Source: Sulfurovum sp. XGS-02
GTDB lineage: Bacteria > Campylobacterota > Campylobacteria > Campylobacterales > Sulfurovaceae
Assembly: GCF_023213175.1 (NCBI RefSeq)
Contig: NZ_CP093312.1
Coordinates: 1,922,001 to 1,986,000, forward strand
Direction: 5' to 3'
DNA length: 64,000 nucleotides
A program made the translations under genes and the position numbers. The notes beneath the pieces are model-generated. The model worked only from the letters and a program-made list of their open reading frames with translations, ran no database searches and was not told where the DNA came from. Position 1 is the first letter of the stretch; the number at the start of each line of letters is the position of its first letter. Positions 3,180-56,271 of the stretch are shown in pieces.

Positions 3180-3856
3180 ACTCTGTCAGTTAAAAGGTAT
3201 CCTACACCACGGATCGGTTTAATGTAGATGTTATCAGGATCGATCTTCGCGATCTTCTGTCTTATTCTTGAAATGATCACATCAATATTTTTAATAGAAC
3301 TTTCATCATCAATATGTTCACTTTCATACAAAAGCTGCTCTCTTGAGACTGAACCGTTTTTATGCTGCAGGAGCATACCCAAGATATCATACTCTGCAGC
3401 TGTAAGCTCTAATGACTTACCTTTGAACCTGATCTCTCTGGCGTTAGGATCGGCAACAAAAAGTTCTTCTGTCTCCTGCACTTTCTCATCCACACTGTGT
3501 GTACGTCTCAAGATCGTTTTGATACGTGTCACCAGTTCTCTGGGGTCATAGGGTTTTGGCATATAGTCATCTGCACCACGCTCCATACCGATCACTTTAT
3601 CGGTGATATCATCCCTAGCTGATGAGATAATAATAGGGATATTGCTGAGTTCACGTATTTTAGGGATCACTTCCAATCCATCCATACCCGGCAGGGTCAG
3701 ATCTAAAATGATCAGATCAAAGTCATGCTGGGTTAAAAGTGACAGTCCTATATAGGGGTCTTCAGCACCTATGACTTCCATATCATATTTTGTAAGATAG
3801 TTTGTTAAGATGAGTGCCAATTCCGGATCATCTTCTATAATAAGTATTTTTATAAT
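3176..3856 (-). CDS. OmpR-family response regulator, ArsR-like, with apparent ATT start
   Basis: The receiver domain has the phospho-acceptor Asp in LIILDLTLPGMDGL, the switch residues S-A in IIISSARDD, and the KPYDPREL lysine. It is followed by a winged-helix DNA-binding domain ending RPIRGVGYLLT. The acidic pair IEDD that coordinates Mg2+ lies upstream of the first TTG or ATG codon in the frame. The frame is open back to a TGA overlapping the upstream permease gene and contains no ATG, GTG or TTG ahead of IEDD. A strong ribosome site AAGGAAG (3862-3868) sits 5 bases before an ATT at 3856. Starting there gives MIKILIIEDDPEL and a normal 226-residue protein. ATC (3859) or ATA (3853) are alternatives. 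It is the partner of the kinase at 1935-3179. Confidence 0.85.
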   Translation of the reverse strand: MIKILIIEDDPELALILTNYLTKYDMEVIGAEDPYIGLSLLTQHDFDLIILDLTLPGMDGLEVIPKIRELSNIPIIISSARDDITDKVIGMERGADDYMPKPYDPRELVTRIKTILRRTHSVDEKVQETEELFVADPNAREIRFKGKSLELTAAEYDILGMLLQHKNGSVSREQLLYESEHIDDESSIKNIDVIISRIRQKIAKIDPDNIYIKPIRGVGYLLTDRV

Positions 3857-3875
3857 GATGTCTTCCTTATGTGAC

Positions 3876-4919
3876 TTAAGTGATCAGTTTGCTTTGTTCT
3901 TTATGATTATAATCTATATATACTTTAGTAATCGCAATCAAAAATGAAGTGATCGCCGGCCCCAATATCATTCCCCAAAAGCCGTAGGTACTCATCCCTG
4001 CAATAATAGAGAAAAAGATAACGATCTCATTGATCTCTATCGTACTTTTCAATAGGTCCTTTTTGATCACTTTGATGATCACGGGTTTAATGAATGTATC
4101 GGCAATAATAGAGATCACAATAATAGAATAAGCCGCAATAAAAATGGCTGTGTTTGCATCCATATTTGACCATGAGTACATTGACACCGGTATCCAGACG
4201 ACAGCCCCTCCGATGACAGGTATCAATGATGCAAAACCATAAATCACACCGAAAAGCAGCCCGTTAAATCCGAAATAACTCGCCATGATCCCAAAGAGAA
4301 AGCCTTCAAAAATAGCGGTTACTATAATAGAATAAAAGACCACTTCCATCGTAGAAGAGACCTCATGTATCATCTTAGCACTTTTCATCCTGCTCACAGG
4401 CATCAGTGCACGTATCAGATCAAAAAAACCTTCTCCATAGAAGTTAAAGAGGAAATAAAAAACAAGTACAAGGATCATGTTCTTCACAAACCCCAGGCCC
4501 GCACTTCCTGCTGTTGTCATGTAAGAGGTTGACTTTTGGATATACTCCGCGATCCTTGCATCACTCAAACCTACCTGACTCCACTCTTTGAGATAGGGTA
4601 TCTTTTCTGTAAAGGTTTGAACGGCCGAGGTCACCTCATTGATCGTTGCAATATCGAGTTGAGCGATATACCCTACCCCTGTAGTTGCCATATAGATGAT
4701 AGGTGCAAAAAGTATCAAGATTAAAAGTGACGAAGTGAACATAGCACTTAACTTTCTGGAATTAAAATACTTGATCAACTTTTTTGTCAGGTTGTACGTT
4801 GCCATAGTCAGTAACATTGCCACCACTATCGAGAGTAAAAAGGGTTTATAGATACTATAGGCACCCATCAGTGAAAGCACAAAAAGTATGGTGATCGTGA
4901 TACTCTTATTCGTTATCAA
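3876..4919 (-). CDS. AI-2E family transporter (PerM/YdiK-like)
   Basis: A 347-residue integral membrane protein with about eight hydrophobic segments and the conserved tail region typical of this family ([16 protein letters not shown], then [11 protein letters not shown]). Members export small molecules or ions, for example AI-2 (TqsA) or Na+/H+; the substrate cannot be predicted here. The start appears to be TTG at 4919, inside the end of ruvB (overlap of 14 bases). The next ATG would remove half of the first membrane segment, so TTG is preferred. It sits in a minus-strand run behind ruvB and ahead of the two-component pair, which suggests cotranscription rather than a shared function. Confidence 0.82.
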
Positions 4920-8950: not shown

Positions 8951-11900
8951 ATATACACTCGGTATTGACATCGGTTCAACTACCGTCAAGTATGTAGTAT
9001 GTGATGAGCACTTTCACATACTCCAAAAAGCCTACACTCCCCACGATACCAAACAAGCCCCGACACTTTTAAGACTCCTTCAAGAACTCTCAGAAACACA
9101 CCCCGATCTCTATAACCACATAGACAAAGTCTACATCACCGGTTCAGGAGCCACCCGTATAGCACCAACGATCAATGCGCGCTTTGTACAAGAGGTCAAT
9201 GCGGTTGTCCTGGCCGTAGAGCACCTCCATCCTGATGTACGTGCTGTAGTCGAACTGGGTGGGCAGGATGCAAAGATCATGCACTTTAAAGTCAGCGAAG
9301 ATGGCAAAAAATCCGTACTGAGTTCTATGAATGACAAATGTGCTTCGGGTACGGGAGCTACGATCGAGAAATGTACGATGAAAGTAGGGATGGAGAGCGA
9401 TGAGGTTCAGAAACTCTCTTTTGAAACGGACAAACTTCACCACGTAGCGGCCAAATGCGGTGTCTTTGCCGAGACAGACATCGTGAACCTCGTCAAAACC
9501 TCTGTACCATCCCATGAGATCATGAACTCGCTAGCCGATGCCATCGTGATGCAAAACCTCACGGTATTGACGCGTGGGAATACCCTTATGCCCAAAGTCC
9601 TGCTTCTTGGAGGTCCCAACACCTATTTGCCATTTTTACAAGAGTGTTGGCGTATGCGTATCAGTGAACTTTGGGATGAGCGTGGCGTAAAGTATAACAA
9701 AGAGAAGATCGATGAACTCATCGTCGTACCTGACAATGCCCAGTATTACGCTGCATTAGGGGCTGTGATCTTTGGTGAAGGTGAAGCGAACCATGACAAA
9801 CCATTTACAGGCCTTATCCAGCTCAAGACCCTGGTCGATACAGGTGGTGTAACACAAAATGACAATGATGACACGCCTCTGGTTTCCACTCCTGAAGAGT
9901 TACAAGCCTTTCAAGAGCAGTACACGATCAAAGCCTTCACACCTCCTGTACTAAAAGAAAAAACCACCTGTTTCCTGGGGATAGACGGGGGCTCTACCTC
10001 TTCCAAAGCTGTCTTGTGTGATGCACAGGGGGAACTGCTCTTAAAGGTTTACCAGCTCTCCAAAGGGAACCCCATAGAAGATACTCTGGAGCTGCTGCAA
10101 AAGATACAGGCACAAGACCCGGAACACTTCTATGACATCCAGGGTTTAGGTGTAACGGGGTACGCTGCGGATGTACTGGGCGGCGCGCTCAATGCAGATG
10201 CGAACATCATCGAAACCATTGCGCATATGAAAAGTGCCCAAAAGGCCTTCGGAGAAGATATCAATGTCATCTGTGATATCGGAGGACAGGATATCAAAGT
10301 CCTTTTTATGGAAAACGGTATGATGAAGAACTTCCGTCTCTCCAACCAGTGTTCTGCAGGAAACGGGACCCTGCTTCAAAGCATGGCAAAACAGTTCGGT
10401 GTGCCAGTAGAACACTATGCAGACACCGCCTTTACAGCCAAGAAAGCGCCCCTCTTCAATTATGGATGTGCGGTGTTCCTGGACACCGACAGGGTCAACT
10501 TTCAGAAAGAGGGCTACAGCAAAGAGGAGCTCTTTGCAGGCATTGCCAAAGTACTCCCTAAAAATGTCTGGCAGTATGTCGTACAGGCACCTAACCTTGC
10601 TGCTTTTGGAGACCATTTTGTGCTGCAAGGCGGTACCCAGTACAACCAGGCAGCACTCAAGGCCCAGGTGGACTACATCAAAGAGAAAGTACCTCATGCC
10701 AGAGTAGATGTGCACCCCCACCCAGGAGAAGCAGGTGCCTACGGCGCGGCCCTGGAAGCCAAAGCGATGGTCGAAGAACGCGGATACGCAACCTTTGTGG
10801 GTATGGAAGAGGCGTTACAGATGACCTATACCTCCAGAACCGATGAAAGCACACGCTGTCACTTTTGCAGTATCAACTGTTCCCGTACCTTTATAGACAC
10901 TCAAACCCCATCCTCTGACACGGTACGCTACATCGCAGGGTTCTCCTGTGAAGAGGGTACTGTGGAGTCCCATGAAGCACTCAAACTGCTTAAAGAGAGT
11001 AGAAAATCCTTGCAGAAGAACACCCCTAATCTTGTCAAAAAAGAGTCTATGGCACTCTTTGCACCTACCTATAATCTGGAAACCAAACCTACTGCTTCCA
11101 CACAGATCAAAGAGCAGCAGGTCAAAGTGACACTGGGCGGCTGGGGACCGACAATAAGAAAAGAGATCAGCAGAAACTTTGTAGAGAGTAGCCAAGAGAG
11201 CAAAGCATACAGACAGAACCTGCAGATAGCCATACCCAAAGTGCTGAACATCTACTCTCTGGCTCCTTTTTTACGTACCTATCTTGAAGCACTTGACCTT
11301 AGTCCTATGCAGATACAGTTTTCAGGTTTTTCCAATGAAGACATGTTCCTGGAAGGGGCGAAATACGGTTCCGTAGACTCATGTTACCCGGCCAAAGTAG
11401 CCCAGTCTCATGTCTATGCTTTGATGTATTCTAAAAAGTTTGCCAAAAAACAGTTTGATCATCTCTGGTTCCCTGCAGTCACCCATCTTCCTGGCTATCT
11501 CAAACATACGATGGGTCAAACCTCCTGTCCTATCATCTCGGGTACACCCAAAGTGGTCTACTCTGCATTCACCAAAGAGAAAAATCTCTTTGAAGAAAAA
11601 GGTATCGATTATGTGGAAGATGCGCTCAATTTTGACAATCCCGACCTGCTGAAAAAACAGCTTTTTCACACCTGGAAAGATAAGCTGCGTATCACAGAGG
11701 ATGAGAATAACTGGGCAGTAGAGCAGGCATGGAAGGCTTTAGATCAAAATGATGCAGAGATCATGAAAGAGGGACGCGCTATCTTGGATGAAGCCGTAGC
11801 CAATGACGAGATCGTGATCTTGTTATTGGGACGTCCTTACCATTCAGATCCGGGACTCAATCATGAAGTCCTGGATGAGTTCCAATCTCTAGGGTTCAAA

Positions 11901-50939: not shown

Positions 50940-52967
50940 TTAAAATTTATATTTTATGTTTGTATAAAAATAACGTCCAGGTTCATTCATAAGCATTACA
51001 TCACCTTCTGTACCTGTAGAAAGAAGCGTCAAATCTTTATACGTGTTCGATACTGCATAAGTTTTATCCAGCACATTGTCCACTCCCACAGTCAGTTCAA
51101 AGTTTTTACCAAATGCTTTGGTTCCTTTCAAATTAACTACCGCATAGGCATCCAACTCTTGCTCACCATTGTCAAAGTCAAAATCCGACCATCTGTCTGA
51201 TGCAATCACTTCTGCTTTTAATTTCAATGTATCATCATAGTCATAATTGACAGCAGCGTTCAACTTAAATGGTGGTATTTCTGGCATATCTTTATCTATC
51301 TGTCCACCAAGAGGATTTTCCTTTCTGCCTCTTTGATAGGACATACCGTAATCAAAATAGAGTGCATCTGTTGCAATGTAGCTACCACCGAGATCAAAAC
51401 CGTAAATCGTTGCATCAACATTCTCAAAGTGTGTTAAAGTAGAATTATAAGCAATAAAATCATCTAGTCTAGAATAGAATGCTTTGACTTTGATCATAGC
51501 ATTTTCATACTGCTTTTCTGCCCCTATATCAAACTCATAATTCACTGTATTTTGTAAGTTGTCTGTTCCAATCACCTTGCCTTTGCTACTTATAAAATAA
51601 AGTTCTCTGGCATCAGGTACTCTGGATGATCTACCAACTCCAGCAAAATATTTGGTACTCTCATTTGCCTGATATGTCCCGAATATATACCCTGTGAGTT
51701 CATTATAGGTATTATCTTGTTGTGTACTATTGTTATTAGTGATTTTTGTATGGTCATAACGAAGTGCAAGGTCTAGTTTCAATTTATCTAATGATATTTC
51801 ATCTTTCATGAACACACCCATATTTTTGGTATCTGCATCATCAATACTTTTCGGGAATGTCATCATAGGATTATAATCCATATAATATCTGCCATCCCAG
51901 TTTCTGATACTATAATCAAGCCCTGCTGTAACACTATGATTATCTACATCAAAACTGTTTTTTAGTTTTGCCCCCTGCATCTTTGTTGTCAAGTGAGATG
52001 TCATTGCTCTCTTCGAATCCCAAATACCATCTTGCATACTTGCAGAAGCATTCGAATCAGCCATGACTCTATATCTCGTAGTCATAGGGTGGTCCACTTC
52101 AGACTGATAGACTTGTACATTCAACTCTTTAGAGTATTTACCAAGATCTTTTGCTATATATTCTGCATTATAGATATCTGAATCATCATACAAGGCATCC
52201 ATTTTAGAAGAAGGATAAAGAACATCATCACTTCTGTTAGCAGTATAGCTGAACCTTAATTCCTGATTTTCAGCGATATCCCAAAAAAGTTTTGCCATAA
52301 ATGTCTTTTTCGTATACGCATCCATATCCTGGTGTATTGGCTGATAACGTGTTCCCATAGGAACTGCAGCCGCTTCCATCTGCTCTGAAAAATCATTCCT
52401 GTCACCATCTTCATACTGTTCACTTTTTTCCGTAGAACCACTGAGCAAAACTTTTACCGTATCTGTTCCTCCGCTCAAAGAGAATGCACCTTTTTGGTAC
52501 CCCCAGCTACCGAGGCCTAAGTTTAGTTCTCCAGCAAATTCTTCTTCTGGTTTGATAGTATGTATCTTTACATCTCCACTGAGTGAACCGAAATCTTCTA
52601 CATTGAACGGACCTTCATTGATCTCGATATAATCCACATTGTTTGTCAATATATGAGAGACCGGTGGATCCATTCTGTTAGGACAGGCACCATAGACTTT
52701 CGTACCGTCTATCGTGATATTGATATTGTCTTTCTTTTGTCCTCTTAAGATGATATCATTCGCTACACCTGATCTTCTTACAAGGGATACACTTGCTGAC
52801 TGTTTAAACAGCGCTTCTCCCAGATCGGCTGACTTGATGTCTTCCCCGCTTACATCTTTCACTACTTCTGTATCTACTTTGGTGGCTACGTTTATCGTTT
52901 CCAACTCTACTTCGGCAGCATTCAAACATACTGAACATACCAAAGAGAGGTAAATCCCTTTTTTCAT
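50940..52967 (-). CDS. TonB-dependent receptor, OprC/NosA-like copper type
   Basis: A 675-residue outer-membrane receptor: signal peptide to about residue 18, a TonB-box-like ETINVATK, plug domain (IILRGQKKDNINITIDGTKV), then a 22-strand-type barrel ending YTNIKYKF. The plug carries GACPNRMDPPVSH with Cys95 and Met99 in the CxxxM spacing, and His293-Pro-Met295 gives an HxM motif near the barrel entrance. OprC of Pseudomonas binds copper with exactly such a CxxxM and HxM set, so copper uptake is the best reading. Many Met residues (MDYNPMMTFP) add to this. It has a TTAACAC direct-repeat box upstream and lies downstream of tonB. Confidence 0.88.
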   Translation of the reverse strand: MKKGIYLSLVCSVCLNAAEVELETINVATKVDTEVVKDVSGEDIKSADLGEALFKQSASVSLVRRSGVANDIILRGQKKDNINITIDGTKVYGACPNRMDPPVSHILTNNVDYIEINEGPFNVEDFGSLSGDVKIHTIKPEEEFAGELNLGLGSWGYQKGAFSLSGGTDTVKVLLSGSTEKSEQYEDGDRNDFSEQMEAAAVPMGTRYQPIHQDMDAYTKKTFMAKLFWDIAENQELRFSYTANRSDDVLYPSSKMDALYDDSDIYNAEYIAKDLGKYSKELNVQVYQSEVDHPMTTRYRVMADSNASASMQDGIWDSKRAMTSHLTTKMQGAKLKNSFDVDNHSVTAGLDYSIRNWDGRYYMDYNPMMTFPKSIDDADTKNMGVFMKDEISLDKLKLDLALRYDHTKITNNNSTQQDNTYNELTGYIFGTYQANESTKYFAGVGRSSRVPDARELYFISSKGKVIGTDNLQNTVNYEFDIGAEKQYENAMIKVKAFYSRLDDFIAYNSTLTHFENVDATIYGFDLGGSYIATDALYFDYGMSYQRGRKENPLGGQIDKDMPEIPPFKLNAAVNYDYDDTLKLKAEVIASDRWSDFDFDNGEQELDAYAVVNLKGTKAFGKNFELTVGVDNVLDKTYAVSNTYKDLTLLSTGTEGDVMLMNEPGRYFYTNIKYKF

Positions 52968-53007
52968 ATAACTCTCCTCAATTAATTTGAGTTATGGTGT
53001 CATAGTT

Positions 53008-53025
53008 GTGTTAATTAAGTGTTAA
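53008..53025 (-). promoter_or_regulatory. Direct-repeat box ahead of the receptor gene
   Basis: On the minus strand TTAACAC occurs twice with 11-base periodicity (TTAACACTTAATTAACAC), 41-58 bases before the receptor start. A weak -10 (CATAAC, 52991-52996) follows. The spacing is that of PhoB-type tandem half-sites. Confidence 0.6.
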
Positions 53026-53027
53026 AT

Positions 53028-53777
53028 CTATCTGATTTGATAGAGAAGTGAAATATTTATACTCTTTGGTAGCGAAATAGGCGCATTTTTTGTATCTATA
53101 GGAAATGCACTTTTTACAGCATTACGTGCAGACCGGTGAAATACTTTGGGCCCACTTACAGAGATATTTCCTACATTTCCATTTCTCAGAATAGTGAATT
53201 CAACCTTGACCGTACCTTGCATACCTCTCTTTTTTGCAATACGAGGATACGACTTATGCTTGTTTATTTTATTTCTGATATTCGCAAGAAATTGATTTTT
53301 CTGTGCAGGAGTGATATTTGCTTTTCGTGAAGAAGCTTTTTGTCTTCTCTGTTTTTTCTTGGCACTCTTCTTTTTCGTTTTTTTCTTGACCTCTTTTACG
53401 ATCGGTTTAGGTATCACTTTTTCTGCTACTGGTTCAGGAGCAGGCTCCTTTTTGACTTCAGGTGCTTTTTCCGGGATCGGTTCTTTTATGATCTTAGGTT
53501 CTACAACAGGCTCTTCCTCAACTACAGGTTCTTCTTCAACGATAGGTTTCTCTATCTCTTTTTCTTCCTCTATCTCCTCTTGTTCCACCTGTTCTACGGT
53601 AGAAACAACTTCAGGTTGAAAAGAACACAAACAAAGCTGTGTCGTTTTCTCTTCTATTTTTTTTGTTGACACGAGATAATGTTCCTGCATATAAAAGAAC
53701 AAACTTATGGTCAAAAGGTATATAAGGGTAGTGCTAAAATAAGAGATAAAATGGCGATGTTTTAACATATTTAGCAT
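53028..53777 (-). CDS. tonB: TonB energy-transducing protein
   Basis: A 249-residue TonB: one membrane helix near residues 13-30, a long Glu/Pro then Lys-rich periplasmic linker (EEEPVVEEEPVVEPKIIKEP and KEVKKKTKKKSAKKK), and a C-terminal domain with YPRIAKKRGMQGTVKVEF and VSGPKVFHRSARNAV. It passes proton-motive force from ExbBD to outer-membrane receptors. exbB and exbD are not in the window. The receptor gene follows after 60 bases and each has its own direct-repeat box, so this TonB is probably dedicated to that receptor. Confidence 0.92.
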   Translation of the reverse strand: MLNMLKHRHFISYFSTTLIYLLTISLFFYMQEHYLVSTKKIEEKTTQLCLCSFQPEVVSTVEQVEQEEIEEEKEIEKPIVEEEPVVEEEPVVEPKIIKEPIPEKAPEVKKEPAPEPVAEKVIPKPIVKEVKKKTKKKSAKKKQRRQKASSRKANITPAQKNQFLANIRNKINKHKSYPRIAKKRGMQGTVKVEFTILRNGNVGNISVSGPKVFHRSARNAVKSAFPIDTKNAPISLPKSINISLLYQIR

Positions 53778-53813
53778 AGAAGAGTCTTTTTTGGGATGTA
53801 TTATGACGGAAAA

Positions 53814-53831
53814 ACGTTAAGGAAGTGTTAA
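53814..53831 (-). promoter_or_regulatory. Direct-repeat box ahead of tonB
   Basis: TTAACAC-TTCC-TTAACGT on the minus strand, half-sites 11 bases apart, the second differing in its last two bases. Eight bases later comes CATAAT (53800-53805), a -10 at the position expected for an activator that replaces -35 contacts. Confidence 0.6.
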
Positions 53832-53912
53832 AAAGCACAGAAGGAGTTTGTATTTAGTGAGGGGGTATCATCCTTATACAAAATACCTTCTGCATTCCAC
53901 TTATTTCGACGT
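53830..53912 (-). ncRNA. Candidate small RNA between the DUF2202 gene and tonB
   Basis: After a box and a CATAAT -10 (53919-53924) an about 83-nt transcript is predicted. CAGAAGG (53886-53892) pairs with CCTTCTG (53838-53844), and TTTGTA (53877-53882) with TACAAA (53847-53852), leaving a 24-base apical loop with a run of five C. TGC and five T follow (53830-53834), as in an intrinsic terminator. CTCCTT in the 3' arm could pair with ribosome sites. A 13-codon frame exists but lacks a ribosome site. It could instead be a leader of tonB. Confidence 0.5.
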
Positions 53913-53918
53913 AAAAGA

Positions 53919-53950
53919 ATTATGACAAAGAAGTGTTAATTAAGTGTTAA
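53919..53950 (-). promoter_or_regulatory. Promoter with perfect direct-repeat box ahead of the candidate small RNA
   Basis: TTAACACTTAATTAACAC (53933-53950) has two identical half-sites 11 bases apart. After 8 bases CATAAT (53919-53924) follows. Box, gap and -10 are the same as ahead of tonB. It lies just past the stop of the DUF2202 gene. Confidence 0.62.
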
Positions 53951-53968
53951 GTGAAATAAATATTTTTA

Positions 53969-54685
53969 TTACTTTATATTTGGGTACTCAGGATGACAAT
54001 ATTCACTACCAAGAGAACAACAACCTTCAGCAATACCTTGATTTTTAAGCCCTTTATCAAATGACCAATAGTGATTGTAGCTACCATCACGTAAGAAACT
54101 GAATACGGTAACAATATCTGTTGCACCTTCAGACTCTGCTAATGCAATATCGCGATTTAAATCATTAACATCTACAACTTCAATAATACATCCTACCTTC
54201 AACGCCTCTATTTCAGATGCCGACCCTTGTGCAACAAGATCATCATAAAGTGTTTGTATAGCTGCAATATCATATATACCTGCATCCATCTCTTCTATAG
54301 GGGTATTGATGTAACCTAATGCCGGTAGATCAATATTCGTAAAATTCACATCATCACTGAGTTTATATTTTTGAATAAGCTCTTGTACCGCAGTAATATG
54401 TTGATGTTCCCCATTTGTTGCGATTTTCGTAAATTGTTCTGTACCATATTGATCATATAGAGCATTATAGACATCATAGGCAAGTCTTTCTTCATTACCC
54501 ATATAAGCTAATGTGTTCATTAAGTCTTGAGATAAATTTGATTTTGGACTATCAAGTGCATCTGTAATTTCAGCTGGTAAATCAGATGCTACAATTTCTT
54601 CAATGGTCGAAGAAGATCCACCACATCCCATGATACTCAACACTAGACCACTAACCAACAAACTTTTGAGTAAACTACTTTTCAT
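53969..54685 (-). CDS. DUF2202 ferritin-like lipoprotein
   Basis: A 238-residue predicted lipoprotein (lipobox IMGCGG, Cys near residue 21). The body matches DUF2202, a ferritin-like helical bundle: NEERLAYDVYNALYDQYG, NGEHQHITAVQELI, VVDVNDLNRDI and GSYNHYWSFDKGL, with Glu/His pairs that could bind metal. The C-terminus has GCCSLGSEYC, three cysteines that may also bind metal. The start at 54685 follows AAAGGAGAG; an upstream ATG gives 11 more residues but spoils the signal. With a box ahead of it and a receptor and TonB next to it, a role in metal handling in the envelope is inferred. Confidence 0.82.
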   Translation of the reverse strand: MKSSLLKSLLVSGLVLSIMGCGGSSSTIEEIVASDLPAEITDALDSPKSNLSQDLMNTLAYMGNEERLAYDVYNALYDQYGTEQFTKIATNGEHQHITAVQELIQKYKLSDDVNFTNIDLPALGYINTPIEEMDAGIYDIAAIQTLYDDLVAQGSASEIEALKVGCIIEVVDVNDLNRDIALAESEGATDIVTVFSFLRDGSYNHYWSFDKGLKNQGIAEGCCSLGSEYCHPEYPNIK

Positions 54686-54731
54686 CAATTTATACTCTCC
54701 TTTACTATATTTATACAATGATAGTCGAGAA

Positions 54732-54749
54732 GTGTTAAGTAAGTGTGAA
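54732..54749 (-). promoter_or_regulatory. Direct-repeat box ahead of the DUF2202 gene
   Basis: TTCACAC-TTAC-TTAACAC on the minus strand with 11-base spacing, 47-64 bases before the start codon. Eight bases past the box TATCAT (54718-54723) can act as -10, matching the geometry of the other boxes. Confidence 0.58.
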
Positions 54750-54781: not shown

Positions 54782-55621
54782 TTAAGTAGCATGCACCTTT
54801 GACATATTTAAACTCACGGTTGTTCCAACGCCTTTTTCCGACTTGAAATGGATCTCTATGCCCTCTTCATCACAATATGCTTTGACCAGAGCAAGTCCTA
54901 TGCCATCCCCGTCTTTTCTATCATCTGCCTGATAATAGCGTTCATGTACACGTAAAAGTTCTGTGGTTCCCATGCCCACACCCTGATCTTCCACACTTAA
55001 GATATGGTTGTTCAATGTCACAAGTATCGGTGCATCTTTGGAAGAGTACTTCATTGCATTGGAGACAATATTGTCAAACATCTGTTCAAAACCTATCTTG
55101 TCCACTTCTATCTCATACTGTTCTAAATTGAGTTCAAAAGGATTTCGTTTCTGATCTTTAAATACTTCAACCCGCTCTTCAATTAACGATTGAAGATCAA
55201 ACCGCTCTTTTTCTATCGTATGCATCTCTTTATGGATGCTGTAGACCAACTCATCATAGAGCTTTTTGAGTCTTACACTGGCATCTTCTATACGCTTGAT
55301 ACGCTTTAAAGACTTCTCATCTTCCATTGTTTTTTTTAACATGGATGTATTGGCTTTGATCGTAGAAAGAGGGATATTAAGTTCATGAATAATATCATTG
55401 GTCAAAGAAGTCAGTGTATCTTCCATCTGTTTTTTAGGTGCAAAGATCAGTGTAGAGAGCACATATCCCCATCCTATGGCCACCAGCAAAACCAAAGCAC
55501 CTGCGATAAAAAAATTAAACTCAGTGATATTCCAATTGCCTAAAAAACGATACACTGCAGTCAGCAGCGTAAACATAGTCACAAAGTAGATGACCGTACC
55601 AAAAATGATCTCTTTTCTCAT
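54782..55621 (-). CDS. Sensor histidine kinase with minimal periplasmic loop
   Basis: A 279-residue kinase. Two membrane helices (about 7-25 and 37-58) are joined by only about 11 residues, so there is no extracytoplasmic sensor domain; this is the intramembrane-sensing layout. The phospho-acceptor box is DIIHELNIPLSTIK (Asn in place of the usual Lys), the N-box DNIVSNAMKYSS and the G-box GDGIGLALVKAYC. The start overlaps the stop of the response regulator gene by 4 bases. Signal unknown; a partner membrane protein may supply it. Confidence 0.86.
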   Translation of the reverse strand: MRKEIIFGTVIYFVTMFTLLTAVYRFLGNWNITEFNFFIAGALVLLVAIGWGYVLSTLIFAPKKQMEDTLTSLTNDIIHELNIPLSTIKANTSMLKKTMEDEKSLKRIKRIEDASVRLKKLYDELVYSIHKEMHTIEKERFDLQSLIEERVEVFKDQKRNPFELNLEQYEIEVDKIGFEQMFDNIVSNAMKYSSKDAPILVTLNNHILSVEDQGVGMGTTELLRVHERYYQADDRKDGDGIGLALVKAYCDEEGIEIHFKSEKGVGTTVSLNMSKVHAT

Positions 55622-56271
55622 TTAATGCTCATCTGGTACCCTACCCCGCGTACATTCTGTATCTGGGTAGGAAAATATTTTTTAAGTTGCGCGATATAGA
55701 CTCTCAACGCCCCGTCACTTGCTTCTTCCGAAGAGCTCCAAAGACGCTCTTTGATCTGCTCTAAAGGAACCACACGTCCCTGACCTTCCAACAATGTCAG
55801 AAGAAGTTCACTCCCTTTAAGACTCAACTCCAGTGCCTTATCATTCTGGTACAGGGTCTTTGTCAAGATATCGAACCGATACGTCCCTATCTGTACGATC
55901 TGACTGCGTACCTGTCTACGTAACACCGCCTGTATACGTAAGAAAAGCTCATCCAGATCGACAGGCTTATGGATGTAATCATCCCCTCCTTTTTCAAACC
56001 CCTCTTTTAGCGATGCCTTATCTTCTCTGGATGTAATAAAGATACAAGGGGTCTCATCACCGCTTTGTCGTAATTTTTCTAAAAGTTCAAAACCGTTTTC
56101 ATACGGTAGATTAACATCAAAAAGATAGAGATCAAATACATGTTCATAGGTAAGGTCCAGTGCAGTGTAAGGATCTAAAGCACAATGCAGGATATGCCCC
56201 TCTTCCTCTAAAAAGTCTTCCAGGGTTTCATTGAACAGTTTGTCATCTTCTAATACCAGTATCCGTGCCAA
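55618..56271 (-). CDS. OmpR-family response regulator
   Basis: A 217-residue regulator: receiver domain with LVLEDD, phospho-acceptor Asp in DLYLFDVNLPYENG, Ser/Thr in CIFITSRED and Lys in HKPVDLDEL; then a winged-helix domain ending QIQNVRGVGYQMSIK. The start is TTG at 56271 after AAGGA. It is the partner of the next kinase. The four direct-repeat boxes nearby have the half-site spacing used by this family, so it is the best candidate to bind them. No box is seen ahead of its own gene. Confidence 0.88.
   Translation of the reverse strand: MARILVLEDDKLFNETLEDFLEEEGHILHCALDPYTALDLTYEHVFDLYLFDVNLPYENGFELLEKLRQSGDETPCIFITSREDKASLKEGFEKGGDDYIHKPVDLDELFLRIQAVLRRQVRSQIVQIGTYRFDILTKTLYQNDKALELSLKGSELLLTLLEGQGRVVPLEQIKERLWSSSEEASDGALRVYIAQLKKYFPTQIQNVRGVGYQMSIK

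Follow-up and report, generated by a model that had tools for sequence, protein, structure and literature searches.

Described systems closest to the Sulfurovum locus

In Mycobacterium tuberculosis, PhoP binds as a tandem dimer to direct repeats of 7 bp that are strictly 4 bp apart, and sites with three or four repeats are bound more tightly (PMC4832192). The same repeat arrangement is present in a box, TTAACAC-N4-TTAACAC, found in Sulfurovum sp. XGS-02, in a window of 64,000 nucleotides (contig NZ_CP093312.1, positions 1,922,001 to 1,986,000). Triple sites here recall the longer PhoP arrays, but the half-site sequence differs and the PhoP regulon is unrelated. Within the same phylum, the motif of the Campylobacter jejuni regulator DccR is WTTCAC-N6-TTCACW. 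Like the proposed binder of the Sulfurovum box, DccR is of the OmpR type, and its motif is a direct repeat with an 11-base period; its half-sites are TTCAC, whereas those of the box are TTAAC. Helicobacter pylori CrdRS, also of this phylum and compared here by description, is a two-component system of copper homeostasis that controls CrdAB-CzcBA. The proposed targets in Sulfurovum are instead a receptor and TonB uptake genes.

The receptor in the window is similar in fold and in CxxxM-HxM ligands to OprC of Pseudomonas aeruginosa and NosA of P. stutzeri, at approximately 21% identity. The copper ligands of OprC are a CxxxM motif in the plug and an HxM motif in the barrel, and nothing is stated to be known of how oprC is down-regulated during copper stress (PMC8610252). 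The control of oprC is reported as unknown, while a two-component pair and a box are proposed for its counterpart here. A search of the open-access literature, with most subscription journals outside it, returned no description of the box or of the pair. The regulon would belong to the known OmpR/PhoB kind, and its putative copper-acquisition target set is the interesting part.

The response regulator encoded next to the boxes is probably a tandem-dimer binder at the -35 position that activates an order-wide TonB-dependent acquisition regulon, most likely for copper.

Form of the box and distance to the -10 hexamer

The preliminary description placed four boxes on the minus strand of the window, and a box was located at each of the four sites.

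52991-52996, minus strand: likely -10 hexamer CATAAC of the receptor promoter, 11 bases past the box
52997-53003, minus strand: degenerate third half-site ATGACAC, 4 bases beyond the box at 53008
53008..53025, minus strand: exact box TTAACACTTAATTAACAC upstream of the OprC-like receptor gene
53814..53831, minus strand: imperfect second box TTAACACTTCCTTAACGT directly upstream of tonB, -10 hexamer CATAAT at 8 bases
53933..53950, minus strand: exact box, -10 hexamer CATAAT at 8 bases; primary promoter for the tonB unit, kept in near relatives
54732..54749, minus strand: box with one change TTCACACTTACTTAACAC upstream of the DUF2202 gene, -10 hexamer TATCAT at 8 bases

The boxes at 53008 and 53933 match the pattern exactly, the box at 54732 has one change and the box at 53814 has two. 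A -10-like hexamer follows three of the four after 8 bases, as had been reported. At the fourth, 53008, the hexamer at this distance is CACCAT, and the likely -10 lies 11 bases on. The same 11-base distance is found in the closest relatives (G003, G027 and G004), where the hexamer is TATAAC or TATAAT. The box at 54732 is kept in two of these genomes, G003 and G027.

Among 89 distinct exact boxes in the fetched DNA, 69 have a hexamer with the consensus [TC]ATA[AC]T exactly 8 bases on. In the logo of this hexamer, A at position 2 reaches 0.91 and T at position 6 reaches 0.83. The half-sites are direct repeats with a fixed 10-11 bp period, which is the form of OmpR/PhoB sites, and the site stands in place of a -35 element at a constant distance from the -10, as in class II promoters of the PhoB/PhoP type. 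The earlier assignment to an OmpR/PhoB-type site with two 7-base half-sites per 11 bases at the -35 position is supported.

TTAACA as a plain -35 hexamer was ruled out, since the half-sites lie 9 and 20 bases from the -10. No -35 hexamer was seen at 17 bases from the -10 at the boxed promoters. Because the box occupies the -35 place and neither half-site is spaced as a -35 hexamer, a phosphorylated dimer that contacts the polymerase is the natural reading. Repression, in which the regulator would block the -35 region from the box, is improbable: the site does overlap that region and its occupation could exclude polymerase, but the rigid 8-base distance, the missing hexamer at 17 bases and the position of the half-sites fit activation.

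Occurrence of the box relative to chance

The box does not occur at random genome-wide. In pattern searches with a reversed-pattern control, the exact box is present seven times in the 2.19 Mb genome and the reversed pattern is absent. Across the order (249 genomes of at least 90% completeness), there are 117 exact sites and 23 matches to the reversed control. In 60 whole genomes, a search that allowed any spacer length between 1 and 9 bases gave 91 exact matches, of which 70 have N4 and 21 have one of the eight other spacings. As the spacer was left free in whole genomes, this preference is not built in by the choice of loci.

In the window, 16 matches are found with up to three mismatches, where 7.9 are expected, and 2 of 100 shuffles reach 16. 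At just twice the expectation, this loose count is weak evidence by itself, and the exact matches are decisive. The loose count is also what speaks for chance repeats within AT-rich promoters, an explanation whose probability is negligible, as it is refuted by the reversed-pattern, shuffle, spacing and -10-phasing controls.

Genes preceded by the box

The preliminary description called the regulon local. This is not borne out, as at least five further promoters carry the box in this genome and it recurs across the order. One box is upstream of a second TonB-dependent receptor, after which a polyferredoxin is encoded (622175). Others precede a YkuD lipoprotein (630270), a multihaem cytochrome-like lipoprotein (1214802) and a small-RNA-like unit by a ribosomal RNA (rRNA) operon (488429). 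Boxes with one mismatch are upstream of exbB-exbD (1510833) and an OprD-type porin (1570314).

At the genus level, counted by eye, the box precedes the receptor homologue in approximately 26 genomes, tonB in approximately 11 and NosL in approximately 8. At the order level, the best site within 250 bp upstream of 60 receptor homologue genes was taken. A box with two or fewer mismatches is present at 43 of the 60, compared with 0.15 expected from shuffles and one for the reversed pattern. Relatives with the two-component pair thus carry the box before the corresponding genes. Neither of the two outcomes that, by the preliminary description, would refute the regulon was seen. In one distant order-level genome, the box precedes a multicopper oxidase (L122).

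The OprC-like receptor

50940..52967, minus strand: TonB-dependent receptor, OprC/NosA-like, with putative copper ligands C95, M99, H293 and M295

The best sequence match of the receptor in the PDB is OprC. For a predicted model (mean predicted local distance difference test score, pLDDT, 72), OprC chains fill the first 28 places in the Foldseek ranking. By VIA-align Z score, OprC (34.6) is tied with BtuB, which is expected of a common fold. The CxxxM-HxM ligand set is present as C95/M99 and H293/M295, and among orthologues CxxxM is found in 42 of 44 and HxM in all 44; the plug stretch with C95 and M99 is of low confidence in the model. The score against the copper-receptor equivalog NCBIfam TIGR01778 is 175.6 bits, far below the cut-off of 472.45, and the receptor is therefore named OprC-like and not OprC. 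From sequence, it is most likely an OprC-like, putative copper importer. This was missed in the preliminary description, and it changes the likely meaning of the regulon.

The two-component pair

54782..55621, minus strand: histidine kinase with two predicted membrane helices and the H-box HELNIP
55618..56271, minus strand: OmpR/PhoB-type response regulator, proposed to bind the box, with RVYIAQLKK as its recognition helix

The regulator consists of a receiver and a Trans_reg_C (winged helix) domain, the architecture of the OmpR/PhoB type, and contains the acceptor-type motif FDVNLP. Its full-length matches include DrrD, PmrA/BasR and others. The recognition helix has the form RVY[IV]xx[LIV]K in all orthologues but one, which has RVYM. 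This helix is absent from the regulator of a neighbouring pair (LRSYVKT-type) and from the G000 paralogues examined. In the kinase, the loop between the membrane helices is approximately 12-15 residues long and no HAMP domain was found. Binding of copper in a periplasmic kinase domain was dropped as a candidate, given this loop and the lack of conserved Cys, His or Met.

In many relatives, the orthologous pair has a second two-component pair beside it, whose recognition helix is different (L097, L098, L099, L100, L111 and others). It is not part of the cluster in this window.

Linkage of the pair with the box and the receptor

The box is linked to the pair by co-occurrence, by shared clusters and by the kept recognition helix. 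Among the 249 genomes, 131 contain both the regulator (counted at E <= 1e-44, a threshold that could let in some paralogues) and the receptor, 31 the regulator only, 6 the receptor only and 81 neither. The odds ratio is 57 for regulator and receptor and 24 for regulator and exact box. These statistics ignore that the genomes are related, and their p-values call for caution. Gene order is better evidence. The pair is clustered with exbB-exbD, and often tonB, in four families far from Sulfurovum (G070, G051, G063, G134, G239, G065, G123, G116, G161 and G205). Regulator, receptor and exbB-exbD come in this order in G235, G074 and G091. In G248, a box comes after the pair, and then a second type of receptor, the polyferredoxin and exbB. 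A box is also directly before the regulator gene in G235. Two genus genomes that lack a regulator orthologue, G011 and G040, contain no exact box.

Binding of the box by some other OmpR-type regulator, for example that of the second pair, has a small probability. Tandem second pairs are present in G004, G007, G010, G012, G039 and others, and sibling boxes TTCACAC and TTTACAC exist. The cluster in the window, however, contains only one pair, and it is the orthologous pair, not its neighbour, to which exbBD and the receptor are tied. The helix of the neighbour (LRSYVKTVR) also differs, whereas RVYIAQLKK is conserved, together with the box, from family to family.

Proposed mechanism and putative copper signal

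In the proposed mechanism, TTAACAC-N4-TTAACAC is the site at which a tandem dimer of the regulator encoded at 55618-56271, or of an orthologue, would bind. Lying 8 bases ahead of the -10, the site would stand for a -35 element, and the phosphorylated regulator would most likely activate in the manner of PhoB and PhoP. The regulon would comprise the OprC-like receptor, the TonB-ExbB-ExbD energiser and the second TonB receptor with its polyferredoxin partner, and further NosL-type copper chaperones, surface lipoproteins and small-RNA-like units. The box, its distance to the -10, its presence at these genes in relatives and its link to the pair are computed results; binding by the regulator, activation and the copper signal are what we infer. 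NosL and the multicopper oxidase under the same box point to copper, as does the receptor. The kinase, in which the loop is very short and conserved ligands of the copper type are lacking, probably detects its signal in the membrane itself or via a partner; the TonB-ExbBD complex as such a partner is speculation.

Several observations weigh against a copper-responsive regulon under this regulator, in addition to the kinship of the genomes and the low TIGR01778 score. No conserved Cys, His or Met was seen in the membrane part of the kinase, and no box was found in the window upstream of the pair itself. Several pair-bearing genomes contain no exact box. In G090, the receptor has a box with one mismatch and the best regulator hit is 40% identical, below the threshold. 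Some box targets (NlpC/P60, YkuD and the multihaem cytochrome) have no obvious copper role, and the second receptor is YncD/PqqU-like.

The nature of this second receptor also favours a variant in which the box and regulator are the same and the signal is iron, general TonB demand, or sulfur or surface growth. All TonB receptors are served by exbBD-tonB. TonB receptors and a two-component system of Sulfurovum indicum are reported to be induced on elemental sulfur (PMC10045233), and tonB-exbBD and iron-uptake genes of Arcobacter butzleri are reported together (PMC9927503). A signal other than copper is nevertheless rather unlikely. A search of nine boxed promoters for Fur boxes found none above shuffles, the most consistently boxed gene is the OprC-like one with its copper ligands kept, and NosL and the multicopper oxidase are copper proteins.

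The proposed activation of a copper-acquisition regulon bears on the control of outer-membrane copper import in bacteria, which is an open question and for which it suggests a concrete route. It names a candidate regulator, an 18-base site at a fixed distance from the -10 and the promoters that would be controlled, and cultured strains of Sulfurovum, Sulfurimonas or Arcobacter allow all of these to be tested. It would also tie TonB-ExbBD expression to a signalling pair across an order that dominates vents and redoxclines, habitats in which the supply of copper is important for N2O reductase and oxidases. A more far-reaching version is unlikely: free-living Campylobacterota would have a two-component system dedicated to copper starvation, with a kinase of the intramembrane-sensing type, that would switch on OprC-type import, the TonB-ExbBD motor and copper-sparing C-rich small RNAs. 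If true, such a system, with its C-rich small RNAs by rRNA operons, would be a copper counterpart of Fur/RyhB.

The tonB region

53028..53777, minus strand: tonB (Pfam TonB_C)
53832..53912, minus strand: leader or small-RNA-like hairpin followed by a T-run, between the two tonB boxes
53969..54688, minus strand: DUF2202 lipoprotein

The genes said in the preliminary description to follow the boxes were the receptor, tonB, the DUF2202 lipoprotein and a non-coding segment. The first three stand. The fourth does not, as the counterpart of the 53933 box in relatives is the first tonB promoter, with a leader of approximately 110-150 nucleotides. The box at 53814 is a second, weaker site right before tonB, and both are kept in near relatives. 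A PADLOC search with the DUF2202 protein gave no match.

The hairpin at 53832-53912 has a z score of -2.4. Covariation is weak, with 2 compensated pairs of 21 and a compensatory change in one relative. An Rfam search of the tonB leader gave no match. The hairpin may be a small RNA or an attenuator, or neither of the two.

Small-RNA-like units and other sites

Small-RNA-like units of approximately 110-180 nucleotides are present in multiple copies beside rRNA operons.

L031:3998-4196 and 3680-3880; L038:4004-4400 and 10004-10400: small-RNA-like units (G000 C1 near 488 kb, 45 kb and 51 kb)
L314, L315 and L326: small-RNA-like units in relatives

These units have a GGTAACC...GGTTATC stem with a C-rich loop, and most copies have a GAAGAGCC/GGCTCTTC terminator. 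A search against Rfam gave no convincing match; one weak, sub-threshold snoRNA hit was taken as chance. Each unit promoter has 7-mer repeats that recur every 11 bases, and TATAAT follows after exactly 8 bases. The half-sites are exact in the 488429 copy only.

A KCxAGKCGAAM motif is common to the C-terminus of the polyferredoxin (L032:6372-7871) and the N-terminus of NosL-type proteins (L076:17678-18415), and is reminiscent of small copper-binding motifs.

A conserved site with a 2-base spacer, TTAACACATTTAACAC, is located at G000 C1:1453369 and recurs in G003, G007, G020 and G027. Sibling boxes of the form TTCACAC-N4-TTCACAC are found at G000 C1:1024371 (L036:3972) and 1839544 (L037:4045), with TATACT exactly 8 bases on. 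Their half-sites are closer to the DccR motif, and the sites suggest a second, DccR-like regulon.
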